Origin: a virus
Virus record (IMG/VR): IMGVR_UViG_3300013118_000236
Coordinates: 1-52,542 of that record
DNA: 52,542 nucleotides
Strand: one strand, 5' to 3'
Part shown: one piece after another, positions 807-23,610 of the stretch
Numbering within the stretch: the first letter of the stretch is position 1
Layout of the letters: the number at the start of each line of letters is the position of its first letter
Position numbers and translations under genes: made by a program
The notes under the pieces: generated by a model
Told to the model about the DNA's origin: nothing
The model's input: only the letters and a program-made list of their open reading frames with translations
Database searches by the model: none

Positions 807-831
807 AATGATTTCTCCTTTCTATACTTAT

Positions 832-860
832 AATATAACAAATCTGACGGGTAAAGTCAA
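832..860 (-). promoter_or_regulatory. Early promoter cassette for the zinc-knuckle gene
   Basis: The minus strand carries TTGACT (860-855), a 17-bp spacer and TATATT (837-832), followed by the conserved TATAGAAAGGAG leader. Two further TTGACA boxes lie 15 and 26 bp upstream (875-870, 886-881), inside the 3' end of the preceding gene. Confidence 0.75.
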
Positions 861-871: not shown

Positions 872-1066
872 TCAAGCAGTTGTCAAGAGTTCTAAACTTT
901 TCTCGCCGCACCATTCTTGATGACCGGGACCGAAAAGCGATTCGCCCTGCGTAGTCCACATCACTTGAACGGGTGCGATGTTGCGGGAGTCTCGGTTACA
1001 CGAAACATCCACCACAATACCGATCTGCTCGGTCAGAAAATGTTTAACTAAGTCACCGACTTGCAT
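872..1066 (-). CDS. GDLV mini-protein (64 aa)
   Basis: Starts MQVGDLVKHF and shows the family strands GIVVDV and VQVMW, ending SLELLTTA. It is the last gene of the 1758-872 operon. Its start overlaps the previous gene by 14 nt. Its 3' end runs through the tandem TTGACA boxes of the next promoter, which explains why its tail differs from the usual SESR. Function unknown; a small SH3/KOW-like barrel is inferred from the spacing of short beta-strand motifs. Confidence 0.8.
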   Translation of the reverse strand: MQVGDLVKHFLTEQIGIVVDVSCNRDSRNIAPVQVMWTTQGESLFGPGHQEWCGEKSLELLTTA

Positions 1067-1220
1067 TGATCAACTCCAAAAAGCCGCTACACTCCACGAT
1101 GGGCTTGCGCCTGTTGTTCCACAGCACATATACATCACCAGATTTAGCCCATCGCTTTATGCAGGGCGCAGTAACAATGCCCAAAATGCCATCGAGTCTT
1201 ACCAAATCACCTACTTTCAC
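1053..1220 (-). CDS. GDLV mini-protein (55 aa, GTG start)
   Basis: This short gene begins at GTG 1220 and reads MKVGDLVRLDGILGIVTAP, then a VYVLW strand and the tail FLELINASR. The GTG lies inside the last codons of the upstream gene (14-nt overlap), with a GAGGTG Shine-Dalgarno supplied by that gene's V-E-V codons. Its own TTG GAG TTG ATC AAT GCA end overlaps the start of the next paralog in the same way. The overlap geometry and family match make it convincing despite its length. Confidence 0.82.
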   Translation of the reverse strand: MKVGDLVRLDGILGIVTAPCIKRWAKSGDVYVLWNNRRKPIVECSGFLELINASR

Positions 1221-1392
1221 TGATCACCTCTACCCAGCTTTCGGGTTCCCAGTCCGTTCTGCCTGAACCTCCGAGCCACTTTATGCCTACCTGAATAGAA
1301 CTACGGTGATAGTCCCTGTCAACAACAATGCCGACAAATCCCGTGCTATGGGTTTTCATCCTCACCAGATCGCCTATCTTAATGCCGTGCAC
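1207..1392 (-). CDS. GDLV mini-protein (61 aa, GTG start)
   Basis: Reads MHGIKIGDLVRMK with three extra residues before the family core, then GIVVD, a VGIKW strand and WVEVISESR. The GTG start at 1392 sits in the overlap with the upstream gene. There the usual junction has shifted: the upstream gene ends SARH with a TAA stop rather than SESR with TGA, and this gene begins H-G-I before K-I-G-D. Fourth gene of its operon; function unknown. Confidence 0.8.
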   Translation of the reverse strand: MHGIKIGDLVRMKTHSTGFVGIVVDRDYHRSSIQVGIKWLGGSGRTDWEPESWVEVISESR

Positions 1393-1579
1393 TGATCACC
1401 TCCAGAGTGTCCGATGAGTGATTAGATTCATCACACCATACAGCCGTCCATAATACGGCAACTTCTTCTTCGTCATTGATGCCTTCGGGATCAACGGCGA
1501 CGACGATGCCCTTTGGCTTTGGGGCACCCTCGTATCTGTGATCAGAATAGCGCATTGTTACAAGATCGCCTACTTTCAT
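1379..1579 (-). CDS. GDLV mini-protein (66 aa)
   Basis: Starts MKVGDLVTMRYSDHRYEG. A GIVVAVDPEGIND segment and an EVAVLW strand lead into the tail LEVISARH. It begins with an ATGA overlap on the upstream gene (stop TGA shared with the ATG) and overlaps the downstream gene by 14 nt. The acidic linker DEEE before the V-x-W strand is peculiar to this member. Confidence 0.82.
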   Translation of the reverse strand: MKVGDLVTMRYSDHRYEGAPKPKGIVVAVDPEGINDEEEVAVLWTAVWCDESNHSSDTLEVISARH

Positions 1580-1758
1580 GCTATCACTCTCATATCTTTG
1601 ACATGGACCCAGCCGCTTGTACGGGTTTTTGGATAGAATACACGGGCCAATGCTTTTGATTCTTCGGCAGTGTTGAGAAGGCGTAAAACGATCCCGATAT
1701 TGGCCTTTTTGCCATTATGGGTATACTCGCTCTGTACCATACTTCCGACTTTGATCAT
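1576..1758 (-). CDS. GDLV-like mini-protein (60 aa), first in its operon
   Basis: Starts MIKVGSMVQSEY, a divergent version of the family core (GSMV for GDLV). NIGIVLRLL and a RVFYPK strand follow, and it ends VKDMRVIA. It is the first gene behind its own promoter, has an AAGGGA Shine-Dalgarno, and couples to the next gene by a 4-nt ATGA overlap rather than the 14-nt junction. Confidence 0.78.
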   Translation of the reverse strand: MIKVGSMVQSEYTHNGKKANIGIVLRLLNTAEESKALARVFYPKTRTSGWVHVKDMRVIA

Positions 1759-1783
1759 AGATTTTTTCCCTTTCTACACCTAT

Positions 1784-1811
1784 AATATAGCCACTTGTGG
1801 GCTATTGTCAA
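1784..1811 (-). promoter_or_regulatory. Early promoter cassette
   Basis: TTGACA (1811-1806), 16-bp spacer and TATATT (1789-1784) precede the 1758-872 operon of five mini-genes. A second TTGACA lies exactly 15 bp upstream (1826-1821), within the last codons of the preceding gene. Confidence 0.72.
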
Positions 1812-1822
1812 GGCTTCAAATG

Positions 1823-2020
1823 TCAAGAGGATGTAAAGTGTTCCAAGAACATTTCGTGAAACTTTAACTGTGTACCTGTCCCAAGAAAAACGATCGTGTA
1901 AGATTCGGTATAGTTTCCCGAAGCATCGGCGCGGTCGATGATCATGCCGGCCCGGTGATCAGGGATCTCAGCCGCATGGGTTCCGTCGCGGATCTTCACC
2001 AGATCACCTATCTTGAACAC
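1823..2020 (-). CDS. GDLV mini-protein with DGTH-IPDHR motif (65 aa)
   Basis: Starts MFKIGDLVKIRDGTHAAEIP and continues DHRAGMIID and YTIVFLG, ending LEHFTSS. The DGTHxxxIPDHR motif is shared with the paralog at 7726..7935, so the two form a subfamily about 6 kb apart. The GTG start gives a 17-nt overlap with the upstream gene. The extra F codon here is matched by one extra codon at the upstream C-terminus (SVQDR), so the dual-frame junction is preserved. Confidence 0.82.
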   Translation of the reverse strand: MFKIGDLVKIRDGTHAAEIPDHRAGMIIDRADASGNYTESYTIVFLGTGTQLKFHEMFLEHFTSS

Positions 2021-2198
2021 TTAAAACCTCGAGCCATTTTGTCGGCTCCCACGATGCTTCTGCATCTTCAATCCAGTAAACTTTAACACGGTGAAGACTC
2101 GGTGTTCCACGATTGATGCCATCGGGCTTCGTTCGCAAAACAACTCCCGTTGCGGGATAGATAGAACCGGGCATATGTACCAAGTCACCCACTTGCAC
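2004..2198 (-). CDS. GDLV mini-protein (64 aa, GTG start)
   Basis: Starts MQVGDLVHMPGSIYPATGVV. A VKVYW strand and WEPTKWLEVL precede a SVQDR tail that is one residue longer than the family norm. It overlaps the upstream paralog by 14 nt (2185..2198) and the downstream one by 17 nt. The Shine-Dalgarno GGAGGTG lies in the upstream gene's L-E-V codons. Confidence 0.82.
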   Translation of the reverse strand: MQVGDLVHMPGSIYPATGVVLRTKPDGINRGTPSLHRVKVYWIEDAEASWEPTKWLEVLSVQDR

Positions 2199-2361
2199 TG
2201 ACCACCTCCAAATGTTTATAATGAATATATCTTGTCTCGCCGTTTGACCAAAACACGCCGATTAGGTTCTTTGCTGTTTTGTGGATCTCAACAATAAGCC
2301 TCGGATCATACCAATGACCATTCGCAGAAACCACCAGATCACCTATTTTAATGCGTTTCAC
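2185..2361 (-). CDS. GDLV mini-protein (58 aa, GTG start)
   Basis: I place the start at GTG 2361 (MKRIKIGDLVVSANG) rather than the longer in-frame ATG at 2400, because the GTG shares GTGA with the upstream stop. LIVEIHKTAKN and the strand IGVFW are followed by LEVVSASG. Inside the operon that starts at 2608. Function unknown. Confidence 0.78.
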   Translation of the reverse strand: MKRIKIGDLVVSANGHWYDPRLIVEIHKTAKNLIGVFWSNGETRYIHYKHLEVVSASG

Positions 2362-2519
2362 GCGCTGACCAATACTGTTACGTCTGAGCGCAATGCACAT
2401 ATGTCGCGAGGATGCTTTTGTGGCTTGATGTGTATACCATCTTCATCAATCAGAACAATAACTCCTAACTTCGTGCCGTAGTGCTTTGTGTTAACTCTTA
2501 CCAGATCGCCAACTTTCAT
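2358..2519 (-). CDS. GDLV mini-protein (53 aa), divergent C-terminus
   Basis: Starts MKVGDLVRVNTKHYG and has KLGVIVLIDEDGI. The second half (IHIKPQKHPRDICALRSD) lacks the V-x-W strand and ends VTVLVSA, so it is divergent or partly degenerate. It starts by an ATGA overlap with the 30-residue gene upstream and ends by a GTGA overlap with the next paralog. Confidence 0.78.
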   Translation of the reverse strand: MKVGDLVRVNTKHYGTKLGVIVLIDEDGIHIKPQKHPRDICALRSDVTVLVSA

Positions 2520-2608
2520 GGTTGCTCCCTATTCTTTTTTTGTTTTTGTTGTTTGAGGTACTTTTCGCGCTCTTCATTCAACTTCTTGAGAGTCTCTAAA
2601 TCCCACAT
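2516..2608 (-). CDS. Small charged coiled-coil peptide (30 aa)
   Basis: ATG at 2608 follows a strong GGAGG and encodes MWDLETLKKLNEEREKYLKQ followed by a K/Q-rich end. The sequence looks like one amphipathic helix. Its stop overlaps the next start as ATGA. An 18-codon alternative reading frame from ATG 2632, immediately after the -10 box, also crosses this region but lacks a ribosome-binding site, so I prefer this one. Confidence 0.6.
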   Translation of the reverse strand: MWDLETLKKLNEEREKYLKQQKQKKNREQP

Positions 2609-2639
2609 AAATACCTCCAGTTGTTTTCTTCATACATAT

Positions 2640-2668
2640 AATATAAGACCGCGAAGCGGTTACGGCAA
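2640..2668 (-). promoter_or_regulatory. Early promoter cassette
   Basis: TTGCCG (2668-2663), 17-bp spacer and TATATT (2645-2640) drive the 2608-1823 operon. A TTGACA box lies 15 bp further upstream (2683-2678), the same phase as in the other cassettes. Confidence 0.7.
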
Positions 2669-2690
2669 GTTTTTTCTTGTCAAGCATATG

Positions 2691-3344
2691 TCATGACTTT
2701 GACTTTTTGGGCTTCGGAGCTTTCTTCAGTCGACGTTCCTCTACCCAAAATGAAATCGTTGAGCCTACGGGCAGGATCTTGTAACGCTTGGCACCCTTTG
2801 CTGCTGACTGAATAAGGCTGCTTATTTCAATAACAAATCCGCCGCGTCTCTTAAAATCACTGAATACGTGACGACTGAGCCGGCCAGAGTCAGCAGCAAA
2901 CAAGTCACTATGCTGGCATGCTGCATTACCCACAATATAATCGCCAAGACTAAACTTCGAAAGTTTCTTAGCCTCGGTCAAAACTTTCGCTGCGTATTTA
3001 TTGTTTAGCATCTTGTAAAACTGATGCCGCTGGGGTACTAATCCATTTTGAATGTCGCGCACAACCTCTTGATAGTAGGGAGTTTTGCTATAATAGAACG
3101 CGAGGATCTCTGCATTGTCGTACCAAGAGTTTTGATATTCTTGCGGCCAAGCTGCAAGGGCCTTGACTGCTTCCTCGGTGTTCTCGTTAAAAATGCGAGT
3201 TAGTACCTCCATCTGTTTCCCCGAGAGACGACGCCCACGATCAATCTGATCAACGATTGATTCGCAAAAACCGCGGGACCAATCATTAAATGTTGGATAA
3301 TCTTGTATTTGCTTGATTCGTGCTTTGATTGCATGTTCGGTCAT
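2691..3344 (-). CDS. Conserved-looking phage protein of unknown function (217 aa)
   Basis: I do not recognise a specific family. The first half is helical (LSGKQMEVLTRI at about 41-52 resembles repeated helices in phage proteins). The second half has beta-like segments (GDYIVGNA, GFVIEISSLIQSA, YKILPVGSTISFWVEERRL), and the C-terminus is strongly basic (KKAPKPKKSKS). A basic tail with a mixed fold suggests nucleic-acid contact, but this is inference. It is the second gene after the promoter at 3849, separated from the gene before it by 80 nt without another ORF. Confidence 0.6.
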   Translation of the reverse strand: MTEHAIKARIKQIQDYPTFNDWSRGFCESIVDQIDRGRRLSGKQMEVLTRIFNENTEEAVKALAAWPQEYQNSWYDNAEILAFYYSKTPYYQEVVRDIQNGLVPQRHQFYKMLNNKYAAKVLTEAKKLSKFSLGDYIVGNAACQHSDLFAADSGRLSRHVFSDFKRRGGFVIEISSLIQSAAKGAKRYKILPVGSTISFWVEERRLKKAPKPKKSKS

Positions 3345-3424
3345 TGTGTCCTGCTTTACTTAAATATGTTGAAAAAGAGATTTTTAGGTGGAAAAAAATG
3401 GCGGAAAAAATCGCGGCGATCGAA

Positions 3425-3826
3425 CTAAAACTCGATGCTCCTGTTGACACAAATATCTCCCCACATCGCGTCACCACGATACTCAATATCCTCGGTTTCT
3501 TCACCGATGCGAATGAACTTGTAAAACTCAAATGCGGGATTTGTTTTTTCTTTGCCTTCATAATCTTTCTTGCCCGTGGGAAGATCCTCGCCATCGCACC
3601 AGTCCATGAAGTCGGTGAGAGCGCGAACACACTCAAACGAGTCATACCACTTGAGCCAGCCCCACTTGAAAAGAAACGATCCCTTTTCTCCATTGTAGTC
3701 TTTGACCATATTATCGGCGTCAGCAAAGCACAACTCTCGCGCTCTTGGCGACTTAGCCATAGTGACCAAGAACTGAGGCATAACCTCTGGACCGACATAT
3801 AAAACAACTTCTGAACGATAACCCAT
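3425..3826 (-). CDS. MGYRSEV-type phage protein (133 aa)
   Basis: Opens with MGYRSEVVLYVGPEV, an N-terminus I associate with a widespread phage family of unknown function. It is acidic and aromatic-rich (FKWGWLKWYDSFECV), with an EYRGDAMWGDICVNRSIEF end. It starts 23 nt after the -10 box of its own promoter with a GGAG Shine-Dalgarno. No catalytic motif is visible. Confidence 0.7.
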   Translation of the reverse strand: MGYRSEVVLYVGPEVMPQFLVTMAKSPRARELCFADADNMVKDYNGEKGSFLFKWGWLKWYDSFECVRALTDFMDWCDGEDLPTGKKDYEGKEKTNPAFEFYKFIRIGEETEDIEYRGDAMWGDICVNRSIEF

Positions 3827-3848
3827 GTATTCTCCTTTCTATATCTAT

Positions 3849-3877
3849 AATATAGCACCCAAACGCATCACTGTCAA
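3849..3877 (-). promoter_or_regulatory. Early promoter cassette, consensus -35
   Basis: Perfect TTGACA (3877-3872), 17 bp, then TATATTATA (-10 at 3854-3849) and TATAGAAAGGAG. A second TTGACA lies 15 bp upstream (3892-3887). Drives 3826 and 3344. Confidence 0.8.
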
Positions 3878-3892
3878 CGGCTAAGTTGTCAA

Positions 3893-4240
3893 CTAATCGT
3901 CAACGACGAAATGTACCCCGATAGGCGCGACACCACGTGGAACCTCGCCGTCAACGATACCGCCGTGCTTTGCCAGCACATTCGTCACCACTTGAACCGG
4001 CACATACGCATAAACCGTTTGTGTTGGCTTGTCTGGTTCCTCTGCGTATTCCATGATCATATCTTCCCTTTGGCTGGGAAAGCCTACCTCTACTTCTTCG
4101 TATTTGTCTGCTCCACTCATCCTTGGGGTACAATACGCACCATGATGCGCCTGCACGCTCATCTTAAAACCATCGGCGCATACCACCTGTCGGTTTCTGT
4201 TGGAACCAACTGTATTAAAAAACTCATTCGCGCTACCCAT
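3893..4240 (-). CDS. Unknown phage protein (115 aa)
   Basis: The sequence contains DGFKMSVQAHHGAYCTPR, YEEVEVGFPS, a TVYAYVPVQVV strand and AKHGGIVDGEVP, ending VVDD. The pattern looks like a conserved phage early protein, but I cannot name a function. It is the last of the five-gene 5020-3893 operon, beginning with a one-base TAATG overlap on the previous gene, and its stop abuts the duplicated TTGACA boxes of the next promoter. Confidence 0.62.
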   Translation of the reverse strand: MGSANEFFNTVGSNRNRQVVCADGFKMSVQAHHGAYCTPRMSGADKYEEVEVGFPSQREDMIMEYAEEPDKPTQTVYAYVPVQVVTNVLAKHGGIVDGEVPRGVAPIGVHFVVDD

Positions 4241-4539
4241 TATTCAAACTCTCCTTTTTTGACAAACTTTAAGTCATTTCTGAGAAAATACGCATCTTCT
4301 CTATTCTTGTTAAAACTCCGCCCCCAGCGCCCATTCGGGCCATCACTTTGCATCCACCTGACGTAGAATCGTGTCTTTTCGTTAACGGAAGTCCATGAAT
4401 AGACTTTTGGCACTGTTTTGATTTCCATAACCAAACCGACGAGGGGCCTCTTTTCAATCCAAATCCGTCGCGACCAACGGCGCAAATCATTTGTTTGAAG
4501 GGCGTATGCCGATAATGTTACTAAATCACCTACTTTCAT
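4240..4539 (-). CDS. Long GDLV family member (99 aa)
   Basis: Starts MKVGDLVTLSAYALQT. The insert WSRRIWIEKRP precedes a LVGLVMEIK strand, and FYVRWMQ is the V-x-W strand. The tail FLRNDLKFVKKGEFE replaces the canonical LEVISESR, consistent with a non-paralog following it. It is the largest family member here and couples to its upstream neighbour by ATGA. Confidence 0.78.
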   Translation of the reverse strand: MKVGDLVTLSAYALQTNDLRRWSRRIWIEKRPLVGLVMEIKTVPKVYSWTSVNEKTRFYVRWMQSDGPNGRWGRSFNKNREDAYFLRNDLKFVKKGEFE

Positions 4540-4874
4540 GCCTGAATCTCCACGGGGATTGCGTCAAGGTTATAACTTCGATCTGCCATTCTGTCCCAAC
4601 TAATCTCGCACCACTCAGAAAAAATCTTCCAAAGCTGCTCGCTCGGCATTTCTTTCAGTCTCTCTTGGTCCCACTCAATCGCTTCGGTCTGATCGCCATC
4701 GGTTTCTGCATACGGGTTACAATCGTTCATAACTGACAAAGCGGTTTCGTCATCGTCAACACCCAAAAACTCTGTTATATCCGAAATGCACGCGAGCGCA
4801 CAACCTTTCTGTGTCAGATGTACGCTGCTAAACAACTCGCCTTCGTAGCTTCCCTGCATAACCCAAACTTTCAT
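4536..4874 (-). CDS. Unknown acidic protein (112 aa)
   Basis: Begins MKVWVMQGSYEGELFSSVHL, a strand-turn-strand opening seen in many small phage proteins. It continues with KGCALACISDITEFLGVDDDE and a helical, acidic second half rich in W and E. No motif supports an enzymatic role. ATGA overlaps link it to the genes on both sides. Confidence 0.62.
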   Translation of the reverse strand: MKVWVMQGSYEGELFSSVHLTQKGCALACISDITEFLGVDDDETALSVMNDCNPYAETDGDQTEAIEWDQERLKEMPSEQLWKIFSEWCEISWDRMADRSYNLDAIPVEIQA

Positions 4875-5020
4875 CCAACCACCTCAAACGCAGCTTTGAA
4901 CTGCCACATCTTATGGTTGTGTTTCTGACTAACAACCAGCACTTGATCTGCGATAACATCAAGAGCAATCCATTTGCTGTGATTGCCCCACATTCTAAGT
5001 AGCGATCCAACTTCGATCAT
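4871..5020 (-). CDS. Minimal GDLV-like mini-protein (49 aa)
   Basis: Reads MIEVGSLLRMWGNHSKW, then DVIADQVLVVSQKH and MWQFKAAFEVVG. The core is VGSLL instead of VGDLV, and the F-E-V-V end corresponds to the family's L-E-V-I tail before truncation by an ATGA overlap. It is first behind its promoter with an AAAGGAG site, and the shortest family member I find. Confidence 0.72.
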   Translation of the reverse strand: MIEVGSLLRMWGNHSKWIALDVIADQVLVVSQKHNHKMWQFKAAFEVVG

Positions 5021-5042
5021 TGTTTCTCCTTTCTATACCTAT

Positions 5043-5071
5043 AATATAACATAAGGGGGTGCGGGTAGCAA
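5043..5071 (-). promoter_or_regulatory. Early promoter cassette, near-duplicate of 5474..5502
   Basis: TTGCTA (5071-5066), 17 bp, TATATT (5048-5043), then TATAGAAAGGAG. TTGACA boxes follow upstream at 5086-5081 and 5097-5092. About 60 bp around it nearly match the cassette at 5474..5535, so one was copied from the other. Confidence 0.75.
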
Positions 5072-5093
5072 GGGTATTCTTGTCAAGTGAATG

Positions 5094-5333
5094 TCAAGAG
5101 ATTTGACTGTTCGCCCAGGGTTCGATATATGCTTGTCTGTCGCCATCTTTTGCAACAGTAAAAGCGTCGGTTGTGAGCATCGGATTGATGCCACGCTTAA
5201 TAATAAACCATTCTTGGCCGCTAACTTGGAGCAAATCAGGGTATGGACGGCCGTGAGACTGCGGGTGCATATCCACCACAATAGCCATAACTCCGGGGTT
5301 AAACTTATACATTACCAAATCACCGACTTTCAT
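5094..5333 (-). CDS. GDLV mini-protein (79 aa)
   Basis: I start it at ATG 5333 (MKVGDLVMYKFNPGVMAIVV), because an in-frame extension upstream is simply the other frame of the neighbouring 45-residue gene. It has QEWFIIKRGINPML as the middle strands and a long, different C-terminus ending YIEPWANSQIS, which overlaps a promoter's upstream TTGACA boxes. ATGA overlap with the upstream gene. Confidence 0.78.
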   Translation of the reverse strand: MKVGDLVMYKFNPGVMAIVVDMHPQSHGRPYPDLLQVSGQEWFIIKRGINPMLTTDAFTVAKDGDRQAYIEPWANSQIS

Positions 5334-5467
5334 ACGCGCACCTTTCCTCGGCATGCCTTTTTGTTGGCTGCCTTCTTGCGATCCTTCATCGCTCCAGCGC
5401 GACGAAAGTGCGCGGCAACTGCGATCCAGTTCCGGCGCTTTGGGGTATTGGTCTTTTTCTTCTTCAT
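5330..5467 (-). CDS. Small basic protein (45 aa)
   Basis: Encodes MKKKKTNTPKRRNWIAVAAH, then FRRAGAMKDRKKAANKK and CRGKVRV. The RNW..A....AGAMKDRKKA pattern is typical of very small basic phage proteins of unknown role. The ATG lies only 6 nt beyond the -10 box, so the mRNA would be leaderless. It ends ATGA into the GDLV gene. Confidence 0.68.
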   Translation of the reverse strand: MKKKKTNTPKRRNWIAVAAHFRRAGAMKDRKKAANKKACRGKVRV

Positions 5468-5473
5468 ACATAT

Positions 5474-5502
5474 AATATAGCATAGTGGGATGCGGGTAGC
5501 AA
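5474..5502 (-). promoter_or_regulatory. Early promoter cassette, leaderless type
   Basis: TTGCTA (5502-5497), 17 bp, TATATT (5479-5474), then the ATG at 5467. Upstream TTGACA boxes at 5517-5512 and 5528-5523 repeat the 15- and 11-bp phasing. Confidence 0.72.
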
Positions 5503-5532
5503 GGGTATTCCTGTCAAGTGAATGTCAAGTGT

Positions 5533-5727
5533 CTAAATAACATTCCAGGCACCGTAATCGCTTCTTTCGATGATTTCTCCGTGCTTGAGGATCTTGGCTA
5601 TCCCGGTGCGCTGATCAACATCAATGACCAGCCCGATCCATTCGGCAAAGGTGCCTATACATTCGTGTACCACGTCACCTGGAAAGATAAATCGCACGGG
5701 CCGGGCTTCCATTTCTTCAGGACTCAT
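5533..5727 (-). CDS. Divergent GDLV-like protein, single-gene unit (64 aa)
   Basis: After an N-terminal extension MSPEEMEARPVRF it reads IFPGDVVHECIGTF, GLVIDVDQRTGIAKILKHGE and ends YGAWNVI, matching the family order G-D-x-V, G-x-V-x-D, then a V/I strand. It has its own promoter and a GGAGAGG site, and no co-transcribed partner is evident. Confidence 0.7.
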   Translation of the reverse strand: MSPEEMEARPVRFIFPGDVVHECIGTFAEWIGLVIDVDQRTGIAKILKHGEIIERSDYGAWNVI

Positions 5728-5749
5728 TTGTTCCTCTCCTTATACATAT

Positions 5750-5778
5750 AATATACCACCGAAACGCCCCTAAGTCAA
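5750..5778 (-). promoter_or_regulatory. Early promoter cassette
   Basis: TTGACT (5778-5773), 17 bp, TATATT (5755-5750), leader TATAAGGAGAGG. Further TTGACT and TTGACA boxes at 5783-5778 and 5794-5789. Confidence 0.74.
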
Positions 5779-5779
5779 G

Positions 5780-5986
5780 TCAAGGAGTTGTCAAGTAAAC
5801 CACATCATCATTTCTTTCGTTGACAAGGTATTTGCCCCCATCGATCCACACAACCCACAACAAATCTTTCCAGCCGCCCGCCTGTCGATCATCGGACTCA
5901 AAACTTTCCAATACAACGCCGGGGTTAGACCAATCCTCGTCACCGAACGATTTTGGCTTGAACGATATTAGATCACCGACTTTCAT
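5780..5986 (-). CDS. GDLV mini-protein (68 aa), end of a seven-paralog operon
   Basis: Starts MKVGDLISFKPKSFGDEDW. PGVVLESFES and LLWVVWIDGG are the two family strands, and it ends DDVVYLTTP. It is the terminal gene of the 7057-5780 operon, whose seven genes are all paralogs. Its start lies in the 14-nt overlap with the previous gene, and its tail overlaps promoter boxes instead of carrying SESR. Confidence 0.82.
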   Translation of the reverse strand: MKVGDLISFKPKSFGDEDWSNPGVVLESFESDDRQAGGWKDLLWVVWIDGGKYLVNERNDDVVYLTTP

Positions 5987-6131
5987 TCAACAACTCCCAA
6001 GAGGTTGAGTTGAAAACTTGGTTAGGAGATTCGCCAGCAACCTTGAAATATGCACCGTGCTCATTGACACACCATATCACAATACTGATCCTACCTGTGA
6101 ACTTGCACCTAATCAGATCACCCACATTCAT
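5973..6131 (-). CDS. GDLV mini-protein (52 aa)
   Basis: Encodes MNVGDLIRCKFTGRISIVIW, HGAYFKVAGES and the canonical tail WELLNESR. Both ends lie in 14-nt dual-frame junctions (6118..6131 and 5973..5986). The upstream junction reads ATGAATGTGGGTGA, giving NECG-stop in one frame and MNVGD in the other. Confidence 0.84.
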   Translation of the reverse strand: MNVGDLIRCKFTGRISIVIWCVNEHGAYFKVAGESPNQVFNSTSWELLNESR

Positions 6132-6318
6132 TCAAAATCTCCAGTTGATCGAGCGGGGTCGAATAAACTTCGCCTTCCCACAACACGTGGGCGTGAGTAA
6201 TAACAGTCCACCCATCTTTATCTAATGCGGTTGCATAGGTATCATCCTCAATAAAAATGCCAGTGATGGGTTTTTCATTCGGACCAAAACTTACTTTTAC
6301 CAGATCACCGTGTTTCAC
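6118..6318 (-). CDS. GDLV mini-protein (66 aa, GTG start)
   Basis: Starts MKHGDLVKVSFGPNEKP. ITGIFIEDDTYATAL and HAHVLWEGE are the strands, and LDQLEILNECG the tail. The His in MKHGD is forced by the junction GTGAAACACGGTGA, which is also SETR-stop of the upstream gene. Confidence 0.83.
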   Translation of the reverse strand: MKHGDLVKVSFGPNEKPITGIFIEDDTYATALDKDGWTVITHAHVLWEGEVYSTPLDQLEILNECG

Positions 6319-6493
6319 TTACTAACTCCCAATCATCTTCGCGGAGCCAGCCCACAGATTCTCCATGGGCAAGCACCTTTATCCAGTTGATTCGTGTCTC
6401 TGTCACGATATGTATGCTGCTGCTCTTGAAGGACGCCGCCGTAAGTACATGATATTGTCTGTATTTCTTTCTCACCAGATCACCGACTTTCAC
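6305..6493 (-). CDS. GDLV mini-protein (62 aa, GTG start)
   Basis: Starts MKVGDLVRKKYRQYHVL. The middle (SSSIHIVTETRINWIKVLAH) keeps a V/I-rich strand pattern, followed by WLREDDWELVSETR. Flanked by 14-nt junctions on both sides; the Shine-Dalgarno GAGGTG lies in the upstream gene's V-E-V codons. Confidence 0.83.
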   Translation of the reverse strand: MKVGDLVRKKYRQYHVLTAASFKSSSIHIVTETRINWIKVLAHGESVGWLREDDWELVSETR

Positions 6494-6677
6494 TTAGCAC
6501 CTCGACGTATCCAATGGGATACCATGATTCTTGTCCCTCTTCCAAAACTTTAACTAACCCTAAGCCGTTTGGGTGCTGTCCACTCTTGTTGACTTCCAAC
6601 ACAATGCTTACAAAGTTAGCGCAATCCTCTACACGGCTTGAGTGATAACCCACCTTTACCAGATCACCCACCTTCAC
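6480..6677 (-). CDS. GDLV mini-protein (65 aa, GTG start)
   Basis: Starts MKVGDLVKVGYHSSRVED. FVSIVLEVNKSGQHPNG and LVKVLEEGQESWYP lead to the canonical tail VEVLSESR. Its junction with the downstream gene is GTGAAAGTCGGTGA, the commonest form of the overlap. Confidence 0.84.
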   Translation of the reverse strand: MKVGDLVKVGYHSSRVEDCANFVSIVLEVNKSGQHPNGLGLVKVLEEGQESWYPIGYVEVLSESR

Positions 6678-6846
6678 TCAGCACCTCAAGCATCTTTATA
6701 AACTCGTAAGTCATATCCCCGTCATTCCATTGAATCCTTGCCACGCGATTGCCGTGGTCAATCGCTGTCTCTTGGGGTCCAACCTCCACAACAATGCCGT
6801 GGTGTATGTGGTCATCCCTTCTTTTAACTAAGTTACCGACTTTCAT
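6664..6846 (-). CDS. GDLV mini-protein (60 aa)
   Basis: Starting at ATG 6846 it reads MKVGNLVKRRDDHIHHGIVV, VARIQWNDGD and LEVLSEGG. The longer reading begins at a TTG one codon earlier, but the ATG restores the exact 14-nt overlap. Here the overlap ends in TAA because GDL has become GNL (GGT AAC), so the D-to-N change and the stop-codon change are one mutation. Confidence 0.84.
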   Translation of the reverse strand: MKVGNLVKRRDDHIHHGIVVEVGPQETAIDHGNRVARIQWNDGDMTYEFIKMLEVLSEGG

Positions 6847-7057
6847 CAATCACCTCTAAATCTGTGATAGGGACTGTACGCTTGTCACCGTTAATCAATA
6901 CGATTGCGTGTGGCTCTGGATCGATCTTGCCCCAGTCTACCTTGCTGCCAAGCTCATCTGTGCGCCAACACTTCTTTTCTATCAAATCAACAATGAGGCC
7001 GGCGCGGAATGATGCTCCGTGAACTGCTGAAAGTTTAACTAAGTCACCTATTTTCAT
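6833..7057 (-). CDS. GDLV mini-protein (74 aa), leaderless first gene
   Basis: Starts MKIGDLVKLSAVHGASFRAG. LIVDLIEKKC, AIVLINGDKRTV and DLEVIDESR follow. Its ATG lies 6 nt after the -10 box, so transcription should begin at or within the start codon and no Shine-Dalgarno is available. It opens the longest paralog operon in the window. Confidence 0.82.
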   Translation of the reverse strand: MKIGDLVKLSAVHGASFRAGLIVDLIEKKCWRTDELGSKVDWGKIDPEPHAIVLINGDKRTVPITDLEVIDESR

Positions 7058-7063
7058 ATATAT

Positions 7064-7092
7064 AATATAGCACCAAAGCCGGCGCTCGTCAA
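7064..7092 (-). promoter_or_regulatory. Early promoter cassette, leaderless type
   Basis: TTGACG (7092-7087), 17 bp, TATATT (7069-7064), ATG at 7057. A TTGACA box lies 15 bp upstream (7107-7102). Confidence 0.74.
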
Positions 7093-7123
7093 CCTCTAAG
7101 TTGTCAAGTGAGTGTTAAGTGCG

Positions 7124-7330
7124 CTAAACTTTTCCAGGCTGCCCCTTTGGGCTAACAACTTTTAGCTTTGAGCGTTGCCACCATCCGATAGGGTTGTTTT
7201 CGGATGACCACAGGATTTTACATTCGATCCCTTTAGTCTCGGTCACCAATCCAACGCAAGAAATATCGCGTTCCTCATCGTAGAGCGCGACAACCAGATC
7301 ACCGATGCTTGGGGCGCCGCTATCCTTCAT
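7124..7330 (-). CDS. GDLV mini-protein with N-terminal extension (68 aa)
   Basis: Reads MKDSGAPSIGDLVVALYDEE, then GLVTETKGIECKILW and WWQRSKLKVVSPKGQPGKV. The core G-D-L-V sits at residues 10-13 after an extension, and the L-K-V-V-S segment corresponds to L-E-V-I-S. It follows an unrelated gene after an 18-nt gap rather than a dual-frame junction. Confidence 0.78.
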   Translation of the reverse strand: MKDSGAPSIGDLVVALYDEERDISCVGLVTETKGIECKILWSSENNPIGWWQRSKLKVVSPKGQPGKV

Positions 7331-7348
7331 TGAACACCAGTCTTACAA

Positions 7349-7654
7349 TCAATAATCATCTAACTCGGCACCGTTTGTGATTGTATCGATATATCCAGTT
7401 GGAACCTTAACAACCATGGTGCGCCAACCTTCCCATTTAGGCCACACATCAAAAAAAGGAAACGAATCGTTTTGTGACTCAATCGTGGCACTCACGTTTT
7501 CGACTTCAACCTGAATCTCCAGATGTGTACCACCGTCATCTGAAGCGGCCAAAACCTCATAGCGTCCATCAAAGTAGTTAGAAATGTACACCAAAAGATT
7601 GTTGATTGCTTGCTGCTTAGGAGCCTTCTCCTCATTAAAAAATATATTCGCCAT
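7349..7654 (-). CDS. Unknown protein (101 aa)
   Basis: I start at ATG 7654 (MANIFFNEEKAPKQQAINNL), which has an AAGGGG site; a longer in-frame reading to 7729 has none. The sequence is a mixed alpha/beta protein (YEVLAASDDGGTHLEIQVEV, WRTMVVKVPTGYIDTITNGA) ending in an acidic AELDDY. I recognise no family. It interrupts the GDLV array. Confidence 0.6.
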   Translation of the reverse strand: MANIFFNEEKAPKQQAINNLLVYISNYFDGRYEVLAASDDGGTHLEIQVEVENVSATIESQNDSFPFFDVWPKWEGWRTMVVKVPTGYIDTITNGAELDDY

Positions 7655-7725
7655 CGGTTCAGTCCCCTTAGATAAGTAAGAGAATAAAACACTTTTAACC
7701 TTTTCAAAAAAATGAACCATAAAAA

Positions 7726-7935
7726 TCAATCTACTTTTTGTATTGGAACAATGAAATATCCATTAAATCTATAAGTTTTTTCTGAACCAAGAAACATTAA
7801 ATCGTATTCTTCACTTGCGCGTACATAGTCGGATCCGGGGACTGCGCTACTGGAAACTATTATAGCTGTCCGATGATCCGGAATACCATCCTCGTGTGTT
7901 CCATCCTTTAATCTTACTAAGTCACCGACTTTCAC
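7726..7935 (-). CDS. GDLV mini-protein with DGTH-IPDHR motif (69 aa)
   Basis: Starts MKVGDLVRLKDGTHEDGIPD, with HRTAIIVSSS and YDLMFLGSEK, ending FIVPIQKVD. It is the sister of 1823..2020, sharing DGTHxxxIPDHR and the x-FLGxxxxxxF pattern. GTG start in a 14-nt junction with the upstream gene. Confidence 0.82.
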   Translation of the reverse strand: MKVGDLVRLKDGTHEDGIPDHRTAIIVSSSAVPGSDYVRASEEYDLMFLGSEKTYRFNGYFIVPIQKVD

Positions 7936-8122
7936 TTACCACCTCAAGCCTTCCAGAATCCACCCACCAAGTCTCTCCGTCGTTAAACAAAACTTGTGCT
8001 GATACTGTATCATGTCCTGTCTTGGATATTTGAATCACCAAGCCGTGTTCTGTGCGGGGGTTGGCTTCAAACACATCGAACTCCAAATCGCTATCAAACT
8101 TTACCAAATCACCGGCTTTCAC
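7922..8122 (-). CDS. GDLV mini-protein (66 aa, GTG start)
   Basis: Starts MKAGDLVKFDSDLEFDVFEA. HGLVIQISKTGHDTV, AQVLFNDGETWWV and the tail LEVVSESR follow. The upstream junction is GTGAAAGCCGGTGA: the T-to-C change makes MKAGD here and is silent (Ser) in the upstream ESR. Confidence 0.84.
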   Translation of the reverse strand: MKAGDLVKFDSDLEFDVFEANPRTEHGLVIQISKTGHDTVSAQVLFNDGETWWVDSGRLEVVSESR

Positions 8123-8291
8123 TTATGACCTCCAATGTCCATATGCTGCTCCAATCAATCGGACATTCTTCCCACTCATCAACCCAGTGGACTTTAACCT
8201 GCTTGCCGCTCGCCTTAATATCGAGAACAATGCCATGTCCCAGCCATCCAGCCGGATCATTCTTCACTTTTACCAGATCGCCCACTTTCAT
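8109..8291 (-). CDS. GDLV mini-protein (60 aa)
   Basis: Starts MKVGDLVKVKNDPAGWLGHG. IVLDIKASGKQ and VKVHWVDEWEE lead to LEVISESR, the cleanest example of the family layout. ATG start lies inside the 3' end of a non-paralogous gene whose tail imitates the family junction. Confidence 0.85.
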   Translation of the reverse strand: MKVGDLVKVKNDPAGWLGHGIVLDIKASGKQVKVHWVDEWEECPIDWSSIWTLEVISESR

Positions 8292-10322: not shown

Positions 10323-10351
10323 ATAATAACCGATCCAAAAGCGAATGTCAA
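10323..10351 (-). promoter_or_regulatory. Consensus sigma70-type promoter
   Basis: TTGACA (10351-10346), 17 bp, TATTAT (10328-10323), ATG at 10315. Likely source of the tRNA-Lys and CAU-tRNA transcript. Confidence 0.75.
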
Positions 10352-10593
10352 GAGGATTTATCACCATCGGCACTACTAATCACTTCAAAGCCGTCATGTA
10401 TCATATGTATCATCAGCAAAGTGCCATCGCTTCTCATCTGGCACACTATTACGTTGTTGGGATCAGTCTTCGAGACTTCAAATATTATACCGTAGGCATA
10501 CACTGGTTTGATTGGAAAAACCTCATCCTCTGTAACCTCAAACAGATCGTGTTCAGTGATCCATCTGATAAGATCGCCCTTCTTTAAGTCCAC
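10348..10593 (-). CDS. Outlying GDLV-like protein (81 aa, GTG start)
   Basis: Reads MDLKKGDLIRWITEHDLFEV, YGIIFEVSKTDPNNVIVCQM and DGFEVISSADGDKSS. The order K-G-D-L-I, G-I-I-x-E-V, V-I-V and F-E-V-I-S matches the array family about 2 kb away. The tail extends seven residues past the normal end and contains GATGGTGATAAA, possibly a relic of a lost junction. No good Shine-Dalgarno precedes the GTG. Confidence 0.7.
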   Translation of the reverse strand: MDLKKGDLIRWITEHDLFEVTEDEVFPIKPVYAYGIIFEVSKTDPNNVIVCQMRSDGTLLMIHMIHDGFEVISSADGDKSS

Positions 10594-11269: not shown

Positions 11270-12168
11270 CAATCATCCACTGTATTCAACTGGTCATATG
11301 AATTATACTTCAATTTTGTTAATTTGTTTAGCACTTTAGCTCGCCGTAGCATCTTAAAAGCAATATTTTCTGGTGAGTATTCCATGAGTTCACTTTCCAA
11401 GCCGGCAGATCGCATACTACGTATTTTATTTTTAAGCCTTTCCACATTCCTCAATACCTTGTCATGCTCACCATCGGCATAGTCGGCCTCAATGGATCTG
11501 GTTTGCTCGTCAATGTCGGTCGCTTTCTTACGTGCTGTTTCAATATCTATGGTTTGCTCAATGTATTCTGGGTGTTTGATCCACTCGTCATTCATCAGAG
11601 AGTACACACCCGTTGACTTATGATCTTCGCCGCTGTTTTCAACATAAATTTCAACGTCGTAATCTTTTATTGTTATATCATGGATATCATTCCAGCGCAT
11701 CCTCTGGGCATCAAAAAATCCTTTGACCAAATCTCCGTTCTCATCTATTGTATCGAAGCTTACGATGATATGAAGGTCAACATCAGAATACTTGGACCAG
11801 TTATAATTTGCAAGCGAGCCGGTTAATGTAATGTCTTCCACTTTTACTCGGATAGGCAGATCATCCACAAAATCATTAGCTATTTTTATAAGTTTCTTTC
11901 TAATCTCTGGTTCAATTTTTTCGTCGCCCCAGATCTGAGGATCCAAATCATCATGAATTTTGAACGAATCAACATCAACTTCAAGCTCTTCTTCTAGTTG
12001 CTTATCAAATGTTACGTGAGTGCCCATTTTTTTGGAATATGGTGGAGTATTTTTATTGCCGCCTTTGCCGAGCATCTTATTCCTGTCTGAAATATAGGAC
12101 CGGATGCGGTTCTTGAAACTGTTGGCTTCCTCAACGGACGCTATATAATCTTTCCATTCTTCCATCAT
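11269..12168 (-). CDS. Nucleotidyltransferase-fold protein (299 aa)
   Basis: Contains LTGSLANYNWSKYSDVDLHI (about residues 115-134), the GS-x(n)-D-x-D signature of the pol beta-like nucleotidyltransferase superfamily, followed by a third acidic strand YDVEIYVE. The N-terminal 100 residues are charged and the C-terminus is coiled-coil-like. I start at ATG 12168 (MMEEWKDYI) because a longer frame overlaps the tail of the upstream adhesin gene. Substrate unknown; family enzymes transfer NMPs to RNA, proteins or small molecules. Confidence 0.72.
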   Translation of the reverse strand: MMEEWKDYIASVEEANSFKNRIRSYISDRNKMLGKGGNKNTPPYSKKMGTHVTFDKQLEEELEVDVDSFKIHDDLDPQIWGDEKIEPEIRKKLIKIANDFVDDLPIRVKVEDITLTGSLANYNWSKYSDVDLHIIVSFDTIDENGDLVKGFFDAQRMRWNDIHDITIKDYDVEIYVENSGEDHKSTGVYSLMNDEWIKHPEYIEQTIDIETARKKATDIDEQTRSIEADYADGEHDKVLRNVERLKNKIRSMRSAGLESELMEYSPENIAFKMLRRAKVLNKLTKLKYNSYDQLNTVDD

Positions 12169-12190: not shown

Positions 12191-13219
12191 TTAAAAAGGC
12201 TTAACCTTATTATACTCAACCGACAAAAGCTGCCGGCCGGCGTCATGCGCGCTGGTCCAAGTCGTACCAAGATTCGTAGTATACGCAATTCCTGTGTCTT
12301 TTCCGCATGCTACAACGGTAGTTCCATCTGTGGCAATACCCATCACAAACCCCACACCAGTTGGCCTTGTAACCTTTGTCCATGATACACAATTATCTGT
12401 AGATTTCCACACGTCAGAAGCTCTGGAGAGTAGCCAGTCGTTCCCCGACACGTGACAAACCGCCCAAGTCGAATTTCCTCCGGCAGTAATAGAATTCCAA
12501 GTGTCGAGAGTATCGCTATCTGAGATAGAGGTTGCATAGTGGGCGTTGCTACTATTATTAGTTTTTAACCATACCCCATTGTTGTATTCGATCCTGTTTC
12601 CTCTCTCTTCGTGGGAAACGTACCACGTAAGCCCATCATCGTGTGATTTTATAGTTTTGGATGCGCCGCCAATTAGCCACAATCCGCCGCCGTCAGTAGC
12701 TATACATAAATTGACACCTACGCCAGTCAGACCAGTGCTTATTTCAGTCCAACTTGAGCCCCCATCAGTTGATCTCTGAATTGTACCGCTGGGATTCTTA
12801 TTTCGTGTAGCTATCCATGTTCCATTAACTCCATACTCTGTTGCTCTTGTTTTGTGTGTGCTAGAAAAATTAACTGCTGACCAATCATCTGCGTCGGTAG
12901 TTGGATCAGACGCCGTGTATAACTCCGGCGAAGCAATACCTGTTGAGATCACCCACATATCATCGTTGTTGCCATCCTTCCCAAAGGAAAGATCCCAATA
13001 ATCCACTGATGTGCCAACTGGTACGCGGTATTCACTCCAAGTCGCAGCATCTGTTGAGTGGCAAACAGTACCATCTCTTCCGATACAGACCCACAGTGGA
13101 TCGTGAGCCGGCGCCGCTGCCAACGCTTGTCCGTTTATCTTGGTACAGCTATCAACCGTTTTGCCATTTATCTTGGCGATGCTCGCCACTGCAATCCCGT
13201 TTATTTTATTGACACCCAT
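12191..13219 (-). CDS. Tail-associated beta-propeller adhesin (342 aa)
   Basis: The N-terminus repeats the motif A(S)xxKING(xxV) three times (about residues 4-30), a spacer often seen at phage fibre N-termini. The rest consists of BNR/exo-sialidase-like blades (STDAATWSEY, STDGGSSWTEI, SHDDGLTWYVS, STDNCVSWTKV). A propeller receptor-binding protein fixed to the tail is the likely role. A shorter paralog without the KING anchor lies at 45507..46487, sharing the end EYNKVKPF. It follows the fibre gene 13220..13822 with an ORF gap of zero bases. Confidence 0.75.
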   Translation of the reverse strand: MGVNKINGIAVASIAKINGKTVDSCTKINGQALAAAPAHDPLWVCIGRDGTVCHSTDAATWSEYRVPVGTSVDYWDLSFGKDGNNDDMWVISTGIASPELYTASDPTTDADDWSAVNFSSTHKTRATEYGVNGTWIATRNKNPSGTIQRSTDGGSSWTEISTGLTGVGVNLCIATDGGGLWLIGGASKTIKSHDDGLTWYVSHEERGNRIEYNNGVWLKTNNSSNAHYATSISDSDTLDTWNSITAGGNSTWAVCHVSGNDWLLSRASDVWKSTDNCVSWTKVTRPTGVGFVMGIATDGTTVVACGKDTGIAYTTNLGTTWTSAHDAGRQLLSVEYNKVKPF

Positions 13220-15130: not shown

Positions 15131-18100
15131 TTAAACTTGTTTTTGATAACTAAAGAAAACCGGAAGTTCTTCCAATCCTGATTTGGTGGCGTACCAAACG
15201 TCATCTTCGTTACCGGTAATTTTAATTCTACCGTTCTGACCCACAGCAACATATACCGGCACTTGGGGGCCGTGTTTGATAAAGTTTTTGTATCCACCGT
15301 CAAATGAATCGGCTGGGGCCCGAAATTCTCTAGAACAGAACCCTTTCAATTCTTTGGTGGGAACCATTACGTGGTATGCCATGTTATTGGTATTCATGGG
15401 CACATCATATGCCATTACGCCCGCGTCCATCCAGTCTTGGGCCACCTTATCAATTGACATGCGTGGTGTGTTAATTGGCTGCCTAGCGTGTTCAGGGGGG
15501 TCCATGGGAGTATGTGACGACTCTCTAATTTTTTTGATCTCCTCTGGAAAACTGTAGCCGGACGGCCCGATGTTTAGGCCGCTAATACCCCTGATATATG
15601 GTAGGAATAGCTGATCTAGATAAATCTTACGGGCCTCTTGTCCCTTGAGAGCAAATTTAATACTGAGCAAAGCCATTGTCTTGGTGGCCATCTTGCGAGT
15701 GCTTACAGTCTGAACGGTGGTTACACCCTTGCATGCACGAATCGCGTCCTTATAATCTTCAATTGAAGATTTTTCAGTTGTTTCAAGAGATAGTTCGATG
15801 TGCATCTTATAACGTCTTACTTCAATAAGCTCGTTCATTAACCTATCAATCCTTTCGATCTGCTCTTCCACGCTCTCCGACAAGTCACGTGGCTCTCCCA
15901 GTGTGCCGGTTTGCGTTTCTCCGCGTTGAACGCCACCATAGTTGCGTACAGTGCCGCTGAAGGCTCTCATTCGTTTCATCTGCTCTTGAACCTTCTCATT
16001 CCAGCGAATTGGTTTGCCGGCATCATCGCCTTCGGGTTCAATCTCACCTTCACGAGCCATATTGAATTGATTGTTTCTTATCGGTGAGAGGTAATCATAC
16101 CAAGCTACGTGCTTTTCTGGTTCGTTCATCTGCTCAAAGTTTTGATTGATCCACCTAGCCATCGCTACTTTGCGCTCTGCCCATTCATCAGAGCCGGAAC
16201 GCACATTGGGTCCGAGCATAGAATCAATCTGTCTGATGGTTGCGTAAACAATCCTTCCCGACATCACATCTGCTTTCGTTGCTTCTGCCAGCGCTACCGA
16301 GCCTTCAAGTGCTATATCAATAGTCTCTTTGGCGGCATCCATAACCAACTGAGGGTTCTCGTTAAAGTATCTTACGATGTCCTTGACTGTCTGTACCTCT
16401 TCTGGTGATGCACTGGAGTCTACACCGATGGTATAGCGCCAGCCAATGGGCATCTCGGGGTATGCGCCTGCGCCTTGTCCACTGGTGTTGTATGCGGCGG
16501 CGCCTTGAATAACAAAGCGAGAGTCTTTCGCTAAGACAATCGGTACATGCTTGGCGGCGTACTTGTCACCGAAGGGAAATTGCTCTTGTCCTGCGGCATT
16601 GGTTTCCTTGTTTTTCTTATACAATCTCTCCAGTGTTCTCGCCATATTGCGATCTAGATCAGGGTTGCCGTAGCGGGCTGCGGAGCGGGGCTGTATCGCC
16701 ATTCCGGTAGATCGACCAAAGGCGCGAGAGTATAAGTGATCTATGTGTCCGGGTCGTCGGTGTTGCCCCCACATCTTCAATATCATCGGCATATCGCCGT
16801 ACTCAACAAGCGTGTCGGCGCTGCTTTCTGGGCGGAACCAAAACTCTAATCCTGACTTGTCGGTGTAGATGTTCCAGTGATCTAATTCATACTCACTCAT
16901 CTCACCGCGATCACGATCATAAGCTGTCTTGACAGAGTAGCCTTCTTGTGCAAGTTTGGCCCTTAGCTCTTCTTTGATCTCGTCGTACTCGTCTTCAAAT
17001 CCCGATTGTACTCCTGAGGCAAAGTTCTCTGCTATGCGGCTAGCATCATCTTCGTCTTCCACGCTCTCGTATTCGTAACAACGGAAGCTAACTATAAGGT
17101 GTGCGGTTGCCGGATAGTCTGGATCTATCTCTTCATCATCTGGCTGAGCGCCTGTGAGCATTTTAACTTCCCACTCAACCTCGGTTTCTCCGGGGAGATC
17201 ATAGCCAATCTCATCTAAGCCTATTTCACTCGTAAAGTCTCTTGCGCTGCTTCCCCAAGTGTTCTCGGGTATCGTTTCGTATCTGTCGTCCTGCGTGGTA
17301 TCGTTTGCCATTATGGTAGGAGTGTACTCATTGTTTCTAAGCTCAAATCCCTTCCACCCCAAGTTAATCTCCAAGCTACCATCACCGTTCATTTGCACAG
17401 TATAGTAATCACCACCGTGATCTTCTGGACCCCGTACTTCTCCAAAGATACTTGAGTTCTCGCCGTCGTAGTCGTTGACAACCTCGTCTATCGCTTCTTG
17501 CATTGCGCCTTCGTCAACTGCGCCTGTGAAGTTCACATCGCGGTTGCGTGGTTGCAGATACTCTATCATCTCTCGGAAGCCTTCTTCATCGTTAGAGTGT
17601 TCGCCTGTTTCTTGAACGCTGCTGATATCCATATTTCTGATGAACCACTCGATGTGATCCCACATTTCCATCGGAGGTGCGTCATTAGAGCGTCCTTTGA
17701 TCTGGTAAAGCGTATCGCTATCCCAAGTCATCGTGACATAGGACGAGGATGCCTTGCGCTTGCTTTGGCGCTTGCGGAGCGAGACTAGCACACCGCGAGA
17801 GTCAGAGCCGCAGTGTCCCATTCGCTCGCCTTCTACCGAGCAGTTAGACACCTGCAAGTTATACCAGTACGAGCCATCTTCAAATTTATGCAGGATCTGT
17901 TCTGGATCTTCTTGGTTCTCCAAGTCCTGCATGGCGGTATTGTATGCGTTGTCAATGTCATCGCCCTTGATCATTTCGTAGTTCGTTGGTTCGTCGTTGA
18001 GCCAAGAGAACAACTCGTTATATCTGCCCCAGTATGTTCTCCACTGAGCCAGCATGTTACGCTGCAACTCATCTTTGACCACCTCAACCTTCTCGGAAGG

Positions 18101-19713: not shown

Positions 19714-19714
19714 A

Positions 19715-21481: not shown

Positions 21482-21482
21482 T

Positions 21483-21776: not shown

Positions 21777-21978
21777 TGAGTTCCTCCAGTGGATATACAT
21801 CTCTTCTTTTAAGCTTCCACGCGTGGCCGTTAGCATAAACTTGATAAACATGGTGACTCATTCTGCTCAAGTAAACACCAACAGTTGGTCTTTCGGTCCT
21901 TCTCAATCTCATTCCTTTATCGGTTTCACACCACAGTTCCACGTCTTGGGGGATGTGAATCAGATCTCCTTGTTGCAT
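21763..21978 (-). CDS. GDLV-like protein in the GroEL operon (71 aa)
   Basis: Starts MQQGDLIHIPQDVELWC; PTVGVYLSRMSHHVYQVYAN and the tail YPLEELNGTS follow. The family features are G-D-L-I at residues 4-7, a G-V-x-x strand and L-E-x-L-N near the end. It overlaps the following gene by exactly 14 nt with the Shine-Dalgarno GGAGG in its L-E-E codons, as in the array 14 kb away. ATG 21978 is fused to the GroEL stop (TGATG). Confidence 0.68.
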   Translation of the reverse strand: MQQGDLIHIPQDVELWCETDKGMRLRRTERPTVGVYLSRMSHHVYQVYANGHAWKLKRRDVYPLEELNGTS

Positions 21979-23555: not shown

Positions 23556-23576
23556 TAATACCTCAAGTTATAACAT

Positions 23577-23605: not shown

Positions 23606-23610
23606 GTATT

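Follow-up and report, generated by a model that had tools for sequence, protein, structure and literature searches.

Small early genes of large phages can be shuffled by a short repeated joint that carries expression signals: such is the behavior of the promoter early stem-loop (PeSL) cassettes of T4-type phages, as relayed in PMC4503421 (Arbiol et al. 2010; Comeau et al. 2014). In this relayed form, PeSL-mediated shuffling is the nearest described system to the one analyzed here, an array of small genes, hereafter GDLV, at 872–8291 of the virus record IMGVR_UViG_3300013118_000236 (G000; "the window" is this whole stretch of 52.5 kb). We consider it probable that the GDLV genes form a modular cassette array, in which a single DNA seam provides both the translation signals and the recombination joint, and whose small barrel proteins would be varied host binders. 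No earlier description of the system was found in the open-access literature.

The window is probably a piece of a larger phage, and its genes include a DnaE-type polymerase, a UvsX/RecA-like recombinase, a DnaB-like helicase, a ribonucleotide reductase, and GroEL. A GDLV profile made from 125 homologs, none of them from the window, was searched against the window open reading frames (ORFs), with reversed ORFs as a control. At 872–8291 it matched 22 members (E 1.8e-21 to 2.8e-5), every one of them on the minus strand, and it matched none of the reversed window ORFs at E ≤ 0.01. A preliminary description of this DNA, made from the sequence alone, had counted about 24 small paralogs in this interval and proposed a search with a profile hidden Markov model; with 22 members found by the profile (E < 3e-5) and two weak ones (E 0.1 and 0.78), its count was fair, and the array was recovered by a profile owing nothing to the window sequence. 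Of the two outlying members it listed, the one at 10348–10593 is supported (E 2.9e-4), and the one at 21763 (E 1.2) is not. Chance would give 0.11 occurrences of the seam pattern described below in the window; there are 17. In relatives, arrays lie downstream of homologs of the nucleotidyltransferase-like gene that precedes the array here. The genes are listed in the order of transcription; all those called GDLV members are profile matches.

11272–12165, minus strand: nucleotidyltransferase-like gene upstream of the array; PF01909 just under cut-off; used as bait for relatives
10348–10593, minus strand: outlying divergent GDLV member; E 2.9e-4
8109–8291, minus strand: GDLV member W01; ATG start; E 1.8e-21; AlphaFold2 predicted local distance difference test (pLDDT) 87.9
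7922–8122, minus strand: GDLV member W02; 14-nt overlap of its start with W01
7726–7935, minus strand: GDLV member W03, PDHR subfamily; 14-nt overlap with W02
7124–7330, minus strand: GDLV member W04; orthologs in L016, L007, L105
6833–7057, minus strand: GDLV member W05; first gene past the promoter 7092–7061
6664–6846, minus strand: GDLV member W06; 14-nt overlap; cassette alone matches L016:2330–2519
6480–6677, minus strand: GDLV member W07; 14-nt overlap
6470–6503, minus strand: seam example, W07/W08, GAGGTGCTAAGTGAAAGTCGGTGATCTGGTGAG; in-frame Shine–Dalgarno sequence, start codon, and stop common to both; aligns to the seams of many relatives
6305–6493, minus strand: GDLV member W08; 14-nt overlap
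6118–6318, minus strand: GDLV member W09; 14-nt overlap
5973–6131, minus strand: GDLV member W10; 14-nt overlap; cassette alone matches L016:4365–4522
5780–5986, minus strand: GDLV member W11; 14-nt overlap; stop adjoins next promoter
5533–5727, minus strand: W12, probable divergent member; E 0.1; placed by position and GDVV motif
5094–5333, minus strand: GDLV member W13
4871–5020, minus strand: W14, possible divergent member; E 0.78; L105 relative 82% identical
4240–4539, minus strand: GDLV member W15; longer, 99 aa
2358–2519, minus strand: GDLV member W16
2185–2361, minus strand: GDLV member W17
2004–2198, minus strand: GDLV member W18; 14-nt overlap
1823–2020, minus strand: GDLV member W19, PDHR subfamily; stop inside TTGACA; AlphaFold2 pLDDT 87.2
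1576–1755, minus strand: GDLV member W20
1379–1579, minus strand: GDLV member W21; 4-nt overlap with W20
1207–1386, minus strand: GDLV member W22
1053–1220, minus strand: GDLV member W23; 14-nt overlap
872–1066, minus strand: GDLV member W24; 14-nt overlap; stop inside TTGACA

One DNA seam, with the consensus TTGGAGGTnATCAGTGAAAGTCGGTGA followed by YYTGGT, underlies most of the conserved ends of these proteins, and does so in two reading frames. The upstream frame gives L-E-V-I-S-E-S-R-stop, the downstream frame gives the start codon followed by K-V-G-D-L-V, and the LEV codons (TTG GAG GTn) hold a near-perfect Shine–Dalgarno sequence. This overlap was overlooked in the preliminary description, which had reported conserved protein ends: the conservation is real, but the two ends do not represent separate features of the protein. 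In a gene with a member behind it, the C-terminal motif is mostly the ribosome-binding site and start codon region of that following member, read in another frame.

When the window-derived seam pattern AGTGAAAGTNGGTGAYYTNGTNA was used on IMG/VR, at least 118 stretches matched, and a profile search of these pattern-selected loci yielded 828 members whose start could be assigned. Every such locus keeps its members on one strand. An overlap of exactly 14 nt is the modal one (364 of 708 neighboring pairs), and a follower lies at −14 for 481 of 715 members when any open downstream start is counted. Because these loci had been chosen by the seam itself, we redid the overlap count in loci selected through an unrelated neighboring gene, and there, too, more members fall at −14 than in any other class (58 of 127 members). 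The Glu codon of LEV is GAG or GAA in a ratio of 408:8, against 825:1043 inside the proteins (45:3 in the seam-independent loci), and Gly4 is encoded by GGT at 474 of 479 overlapped starts but by mixed codons elsewhere. SESR-like ends are carried by 75% of followed members versus 5% of terminal ones, and the Shine–Dalgarno core falls from 88% to 33%, whereas a hydrophobic LxV-type strand is kept in 59%; the last β strand is thus genuine, but the precise residues in it, like the SESR tail, mostly reflect the signal of the neighboring gene. As for the terminal members, 32 of 73 end in, or next to, the −35 box (TTGACA) of the promoter that follows, as opposed to 2 of 481 followed members.

A near-perfect Shine–Dalgarno sequence that codon choice tracks is also what one would expect were the seam merely a translation device, that is, a tight coupling of termination and reinitiation in compact operons, with recombination an accident of the repeated sequence. 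Short coupled overlaps are common in prokaryotes (PMC6728339, PMC10666635), and the seam forms no RNA hairpin (folding at seams was no better than that of shuffled sequences, and an Rfam scan returned tRNAs only). Ordinary overlaps are, however, mostly of 4 or 1 nt (PMC3887535), unlike the uniform 14 nt found here, and one length across hundreds of divergent genes needs either interchangeability or common descent of the joint. The gain and loss of cassettes observed at the seam likewise argue against this explanation, which we regard as rather unlikely.

The seam doubles as a recombination joint. Loci L007 and L009 have flanks with 99.5% identity over 8.4 kb on one side and 100% over 2.6 kb on the other, and the single large difference between these flanks is one additional complete 176-bp cassette in L007, bounded by two perfect 20-bp copies of the seam, ATGAAAGTCGGTGATTTGGT; the frames are intact in both loci. 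L099 and L102 differ in a similar way, by 175 bp, and a scan of contig pairs gave 22 indels of this kind, the majority having a junction no more than 12 nt from the end of a member. When homology blocks between the window array and 19 loci were delimited, 60% of the block ends fell ≤15 nt from gene ends, against 15% in the null expectation from 2000 circular shifts, whose maximum was 34%; these indel and block-end counts are not fully independent, as certain loci share a contig or lie on near-identical ones.

The array is a sample of a recombining cassette pool and not a set of local tandem duplicates. Once the seam residues are taken out, a member core finds its best match on another contig in 405 cases and on its own contig in 24, whereas 165 cores have no match, and 698 sampled members fall into 487 clusters at 55% identity. 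That the arrays were built by local tandem duplication followed by divergence would agree with members that are adjacent, on the same strand, and of one fold, and also with a few arrays (L119, L003, and L063) that hold recent close duplicates at 80–91% core identity, unlike most arrays. As the main process, it is nevertheless largely refuted, and we hold it to be highly unlikely: the own contig provides the best match for 24 of the 429 members with a significant core match, the best core identity within the window array is 33%, and orthologs are found in altered order and context in relatives. The term "tandem array" used in the preliminary description is thus apt for adjacent genes on one strand, but not for local duplication. 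Similarity of the backbone and similarity of the cassettes disagree: the nucleotidyltransferase-like gene of L105 is 48% identical to that of the window, but its cassettes corresponding to W08, W06, and W04 are 93%, 90%, and 89% identical, whereas L140, in which this gene is 81% identical, has only eight cassettes in common with the window.

Among ortholog pairs, substitutions at codon positions 1, 2, and 3 number 1225, 860, and 2520, the median ratio of nonsynonymous to synonymous rates (dN/dS) is 0.18, and none of the 103 pairs exceeds 1. Both the excess at the third position and the low dN/dS support these ORFs being protein-coding. Positive selection on members was considered and rejected, as no ortholog pair has a dN/dS above 1. 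Because orthologs are conserved, turnover is of whole genes, so that the suggestion of selection for many variants was half right: the variety exists, through gain, loss, and swapping of entire genes, but orthologs are under purifying selection. Selfish or neutral cassettes, short ORFs spreading via the seam without any phage function, might show the same whole-cassette turnover and the same lack of database matches; the dN/dS values and a fold kept at low identity speak against this, and make it very improbable indeed.

To what fold these genes give rise was addressed with AlphaFold2, using 126 sequences for W01 and, for W19, which belongs to a different subfamily, its own alignment of six sequences. 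Both models are five-strand barrels with identical strand order (pLDDT 87.9 and 87.2), the fold being retained at low sequence identity. In Foldseek, the W01 model matches KOW, Tudor, PWWP, and ribosomal proteins with marginal E-values and template modeling (TM) scores of ∼0.7–0.8, including Spt5/NusG at TM 0.73–0.81 and E about 0.02–0.06; the matches of W19 are of like classes with lower scores. The top Protein Data Bank match of the profile is NusG (E 0.011). By sequence, 2 of 126 members reach E 0.05 with the KOW family PF00467 (best 7.8e-4), eight window members gave no match to it, and hhalign against an approximate NusG KOW sequence gave a probability of 22% only. Conserved columns include G4, D5, L6, V7, G20, V34, W36, L53, and V55, and the loops are near-random. 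The models support one predicted SH3-like barrel of the KOW/Tudor type, of ∼60 residues, per cassette, as had been guessed in the preliminary description, which asked whether divergent members would be predicted to share a fold; the two modeled here do.

The structural matches to KOW, PWWP, and ribosomal L24-type domains raise the alternative that these proteins are nucleic-acid binders coating host DNA or RNA, like ribosomal KOW domains or MotB of phage T4, an early protein for which a KOW domain is predicted and which binds DNA and alters H-NS binding (PMC7827196). The net charge of the members is, however, centered on zero (−7 to +5, 5th–95th percentile), which argues against a single nucleic-acid-binding role, and the member column profile shows no sign of a conserved basic surface; we find this alternative unlikely.

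The preliminary description had placed the array in an early region. This is plausible from the nine TATATTATA promoter motifs of the window, which all lie between 837 and 9341 on the strand of the array, most of them preceded by TTGACA-like boxes at 16–17 nt. They are presumably promoters of the host σ70 type, probably early ones, and the following were located by a motif scan.

7061–7092, minus strand: promoter of the W05–W11 operon, TTGACG-N17-TATATT
5747–5778, minus strand: promoter, TTGACT-N17-TATATT
3847–3877, minus strand: promoter, TTGACA-N17-TATATT
1781–1811, minus strand: promoter, TTGACA-N16-TATATT
829–860, minus strand: promoter downstream of W24, TTGACT-N17-TATATT

Taken together, the sequences show that the last 14 nt of a cassette double as the opening 14 nt of the gene after it, SESR-stop and MKVGD being the same DNA in two frames; with the Shine–Dalgarno sequence held in frame, any cassette can therefore follow any other with its translation signals intact. 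The seam of ∼20–40 nt is at the same time a direct repeat between cassettes, at which whole cassettes are lost, gained, and exchanged, driven perhaps by phage or host recombination, or by slippage. A ribosome ending one gene would reinitiate at the next, in operons whose strong σ70-like promoters would ensure early expression. The barrels, with their variable loops and widely varying charge, may bind different host proteins, and members may thus be early host-takeover or counter-defense binders with different targets, each phage carrying a sample of a large common pool of such proteins.

Several points weigh against this modular reading. About a third of the members lie outside 14-nt overlaps, some having 4-nt overlaps or separate starts, and seam conservation could be maintained for translation alone, with recombination as a by-product. 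A near-identical contig pair could represent assembly variants, yet several further seam indels were listed. Recent local duplication did occur in a minority of arrays (L119 and L003, with 91% and 85% core identity). Finally, no match in Pfam, PHROGs, or PADLOC points to targets: Pfam and PHROGs gave scattered weak matches only, with single members and with the 126 members, and the PADLOC anti-phage defense profiles gave weak unrelated matches for three members (best E 0.0042).

A further reading, which we advance tentatively as a real possibility, is that the seam is a selected universal adaptor, and that these are ocean-wide, interchangeable mini-barrel binders swapped between lineages to suit host targets, a combinatorial protein arsenal that would evolve by gene exchange and not by point mutation. 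In the modular reading itself, a single joint is ribosome-binding site, start, stop, and recombination repeat, which gives a testable mechanism for the turnover of small "ORFan" genes in large phages. The family is large and hypervariable, and no profile in the libraries used covers its members; should the barrels indeed bind proteins of the host, nature would have provided in this pool a library of small proteins directed at bacterial targets. For annotation, a conserved terminus can be the overprinted signal of a neighboring gene.

The carriers of these arrays are large uncultured, mostly marine phages. All 32 pattern-selected viral records carry 10–36 members each, and 8 of 12 large records picked by the nucleotidyltransferase-like gene carry members; BFVD contains structural lookalikes from phages. 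No convincing member was found among INPHARED phages by tblastn with two members and a consensus or by a search for the seam DNA, single-sequence searches being weak for so divergent a family. Bacterial genomes gave 19 seam matches, with arrays in three metagenome-assembled genomes (MAGs) only, and among 299 Pseudomonadota genomes we found one array MAG, already known, and single borderline matches in 2 of the 298 others. A MAG labeled "WOR-3 chromosome" has GDLV arrays (L221–L224; CP070664, 2.071–2.147 Mb) near phage-like genes between N runs. Because this scaffold has N gaps and the array lies beside a terminase-like ORF, identified by reading the sequence, these arrays are probably viral contigs joined into the scaffold.

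Elsewhere in the window, the order of genes at 39458–49146 (SSB, RecA/UvsX-like, exonuclease, helicase, ribonucleotide reductase) resembles that of Microcystis phage Mel-JY01, in which no GDLV member was found even though this replication gene order is common to both. Host-like genes at 18626–27126 encode a phosphomannomutase-like HAD protein, GroEL, a ClpP-like protease, and an IMP dehydrogenase/GMP reductase-like protein; 15131–18583 encodes a protein of 1150 aa without Pfam or PHROG match. Two BNR/sialidase-like repeat proteins that resemble each other (342 and 326 aa) are encoded 32 kb apart, at 12191–13219 and 45507–46487. A secreted-looking protein of 404 aa (36254–37468) ends in a MYXO-CTERM-like tail (GCSCAVANRG...FRRRD; TIGR03901 at 13.2 bits, cut-off 20), and lies beside a matrixin-like metalloprotease (37496–38029) whose top NCBIfam match is a myxosortase-dependent protease; the tail and the adjoining protease are a weak hint of a myxobacteria-like host.

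How, then, do GDLV cassettes compare with known systems? In predicted fold, the proteins resemble KOW, Tudor, and PWWP barrels (NusG, Spt5, uL24) and the N-terminal domain of T4 MotB, an example of a KOW-type domain acting in host takeover, and they share with KOW-type proteins an N-terminal G-D-x-V then G-x-V pattern. They differ from these in standing alone at ∼60 residues, in forming large families, and in having no significant sequence membership. Classical tandem duplicates have their nearest paralog in their own array, which is not the case here (24 own versus 405 other contig). Integron cassettes are head-to-tail exchangeable genes drawn from a large common pool; GDLV cassettes are alike in both respects, whereas their joints are in-frame coding overlaps without folding, probably exchanged by homologous or slippage recombination. 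In translationally coupled overlapping genes, the upstream stop also overlaps the downstream start, and reinitiation is expected, but GDLV genes overlap by 14 nt instead of 4 or 1, with a full Shine–Dalgarno site encoded within the C-terminus of the upstream member. With PeSL cassettes, the GDLV array has in common a repeated joint that mediates modular shuffling, as seen from cassette indels and from block ends at seams. The PeSL joint, in the account relayed, holds a promoter and a stem-loop; GDLV seams carry no promoter motif, promoters lying between operons, and are hairpin-free. Instead, the GDLV seam lies within coding sequence, in two frames, holds a ribosome-binding site, a start, and a stop, and carries a single fold family as its cargo.

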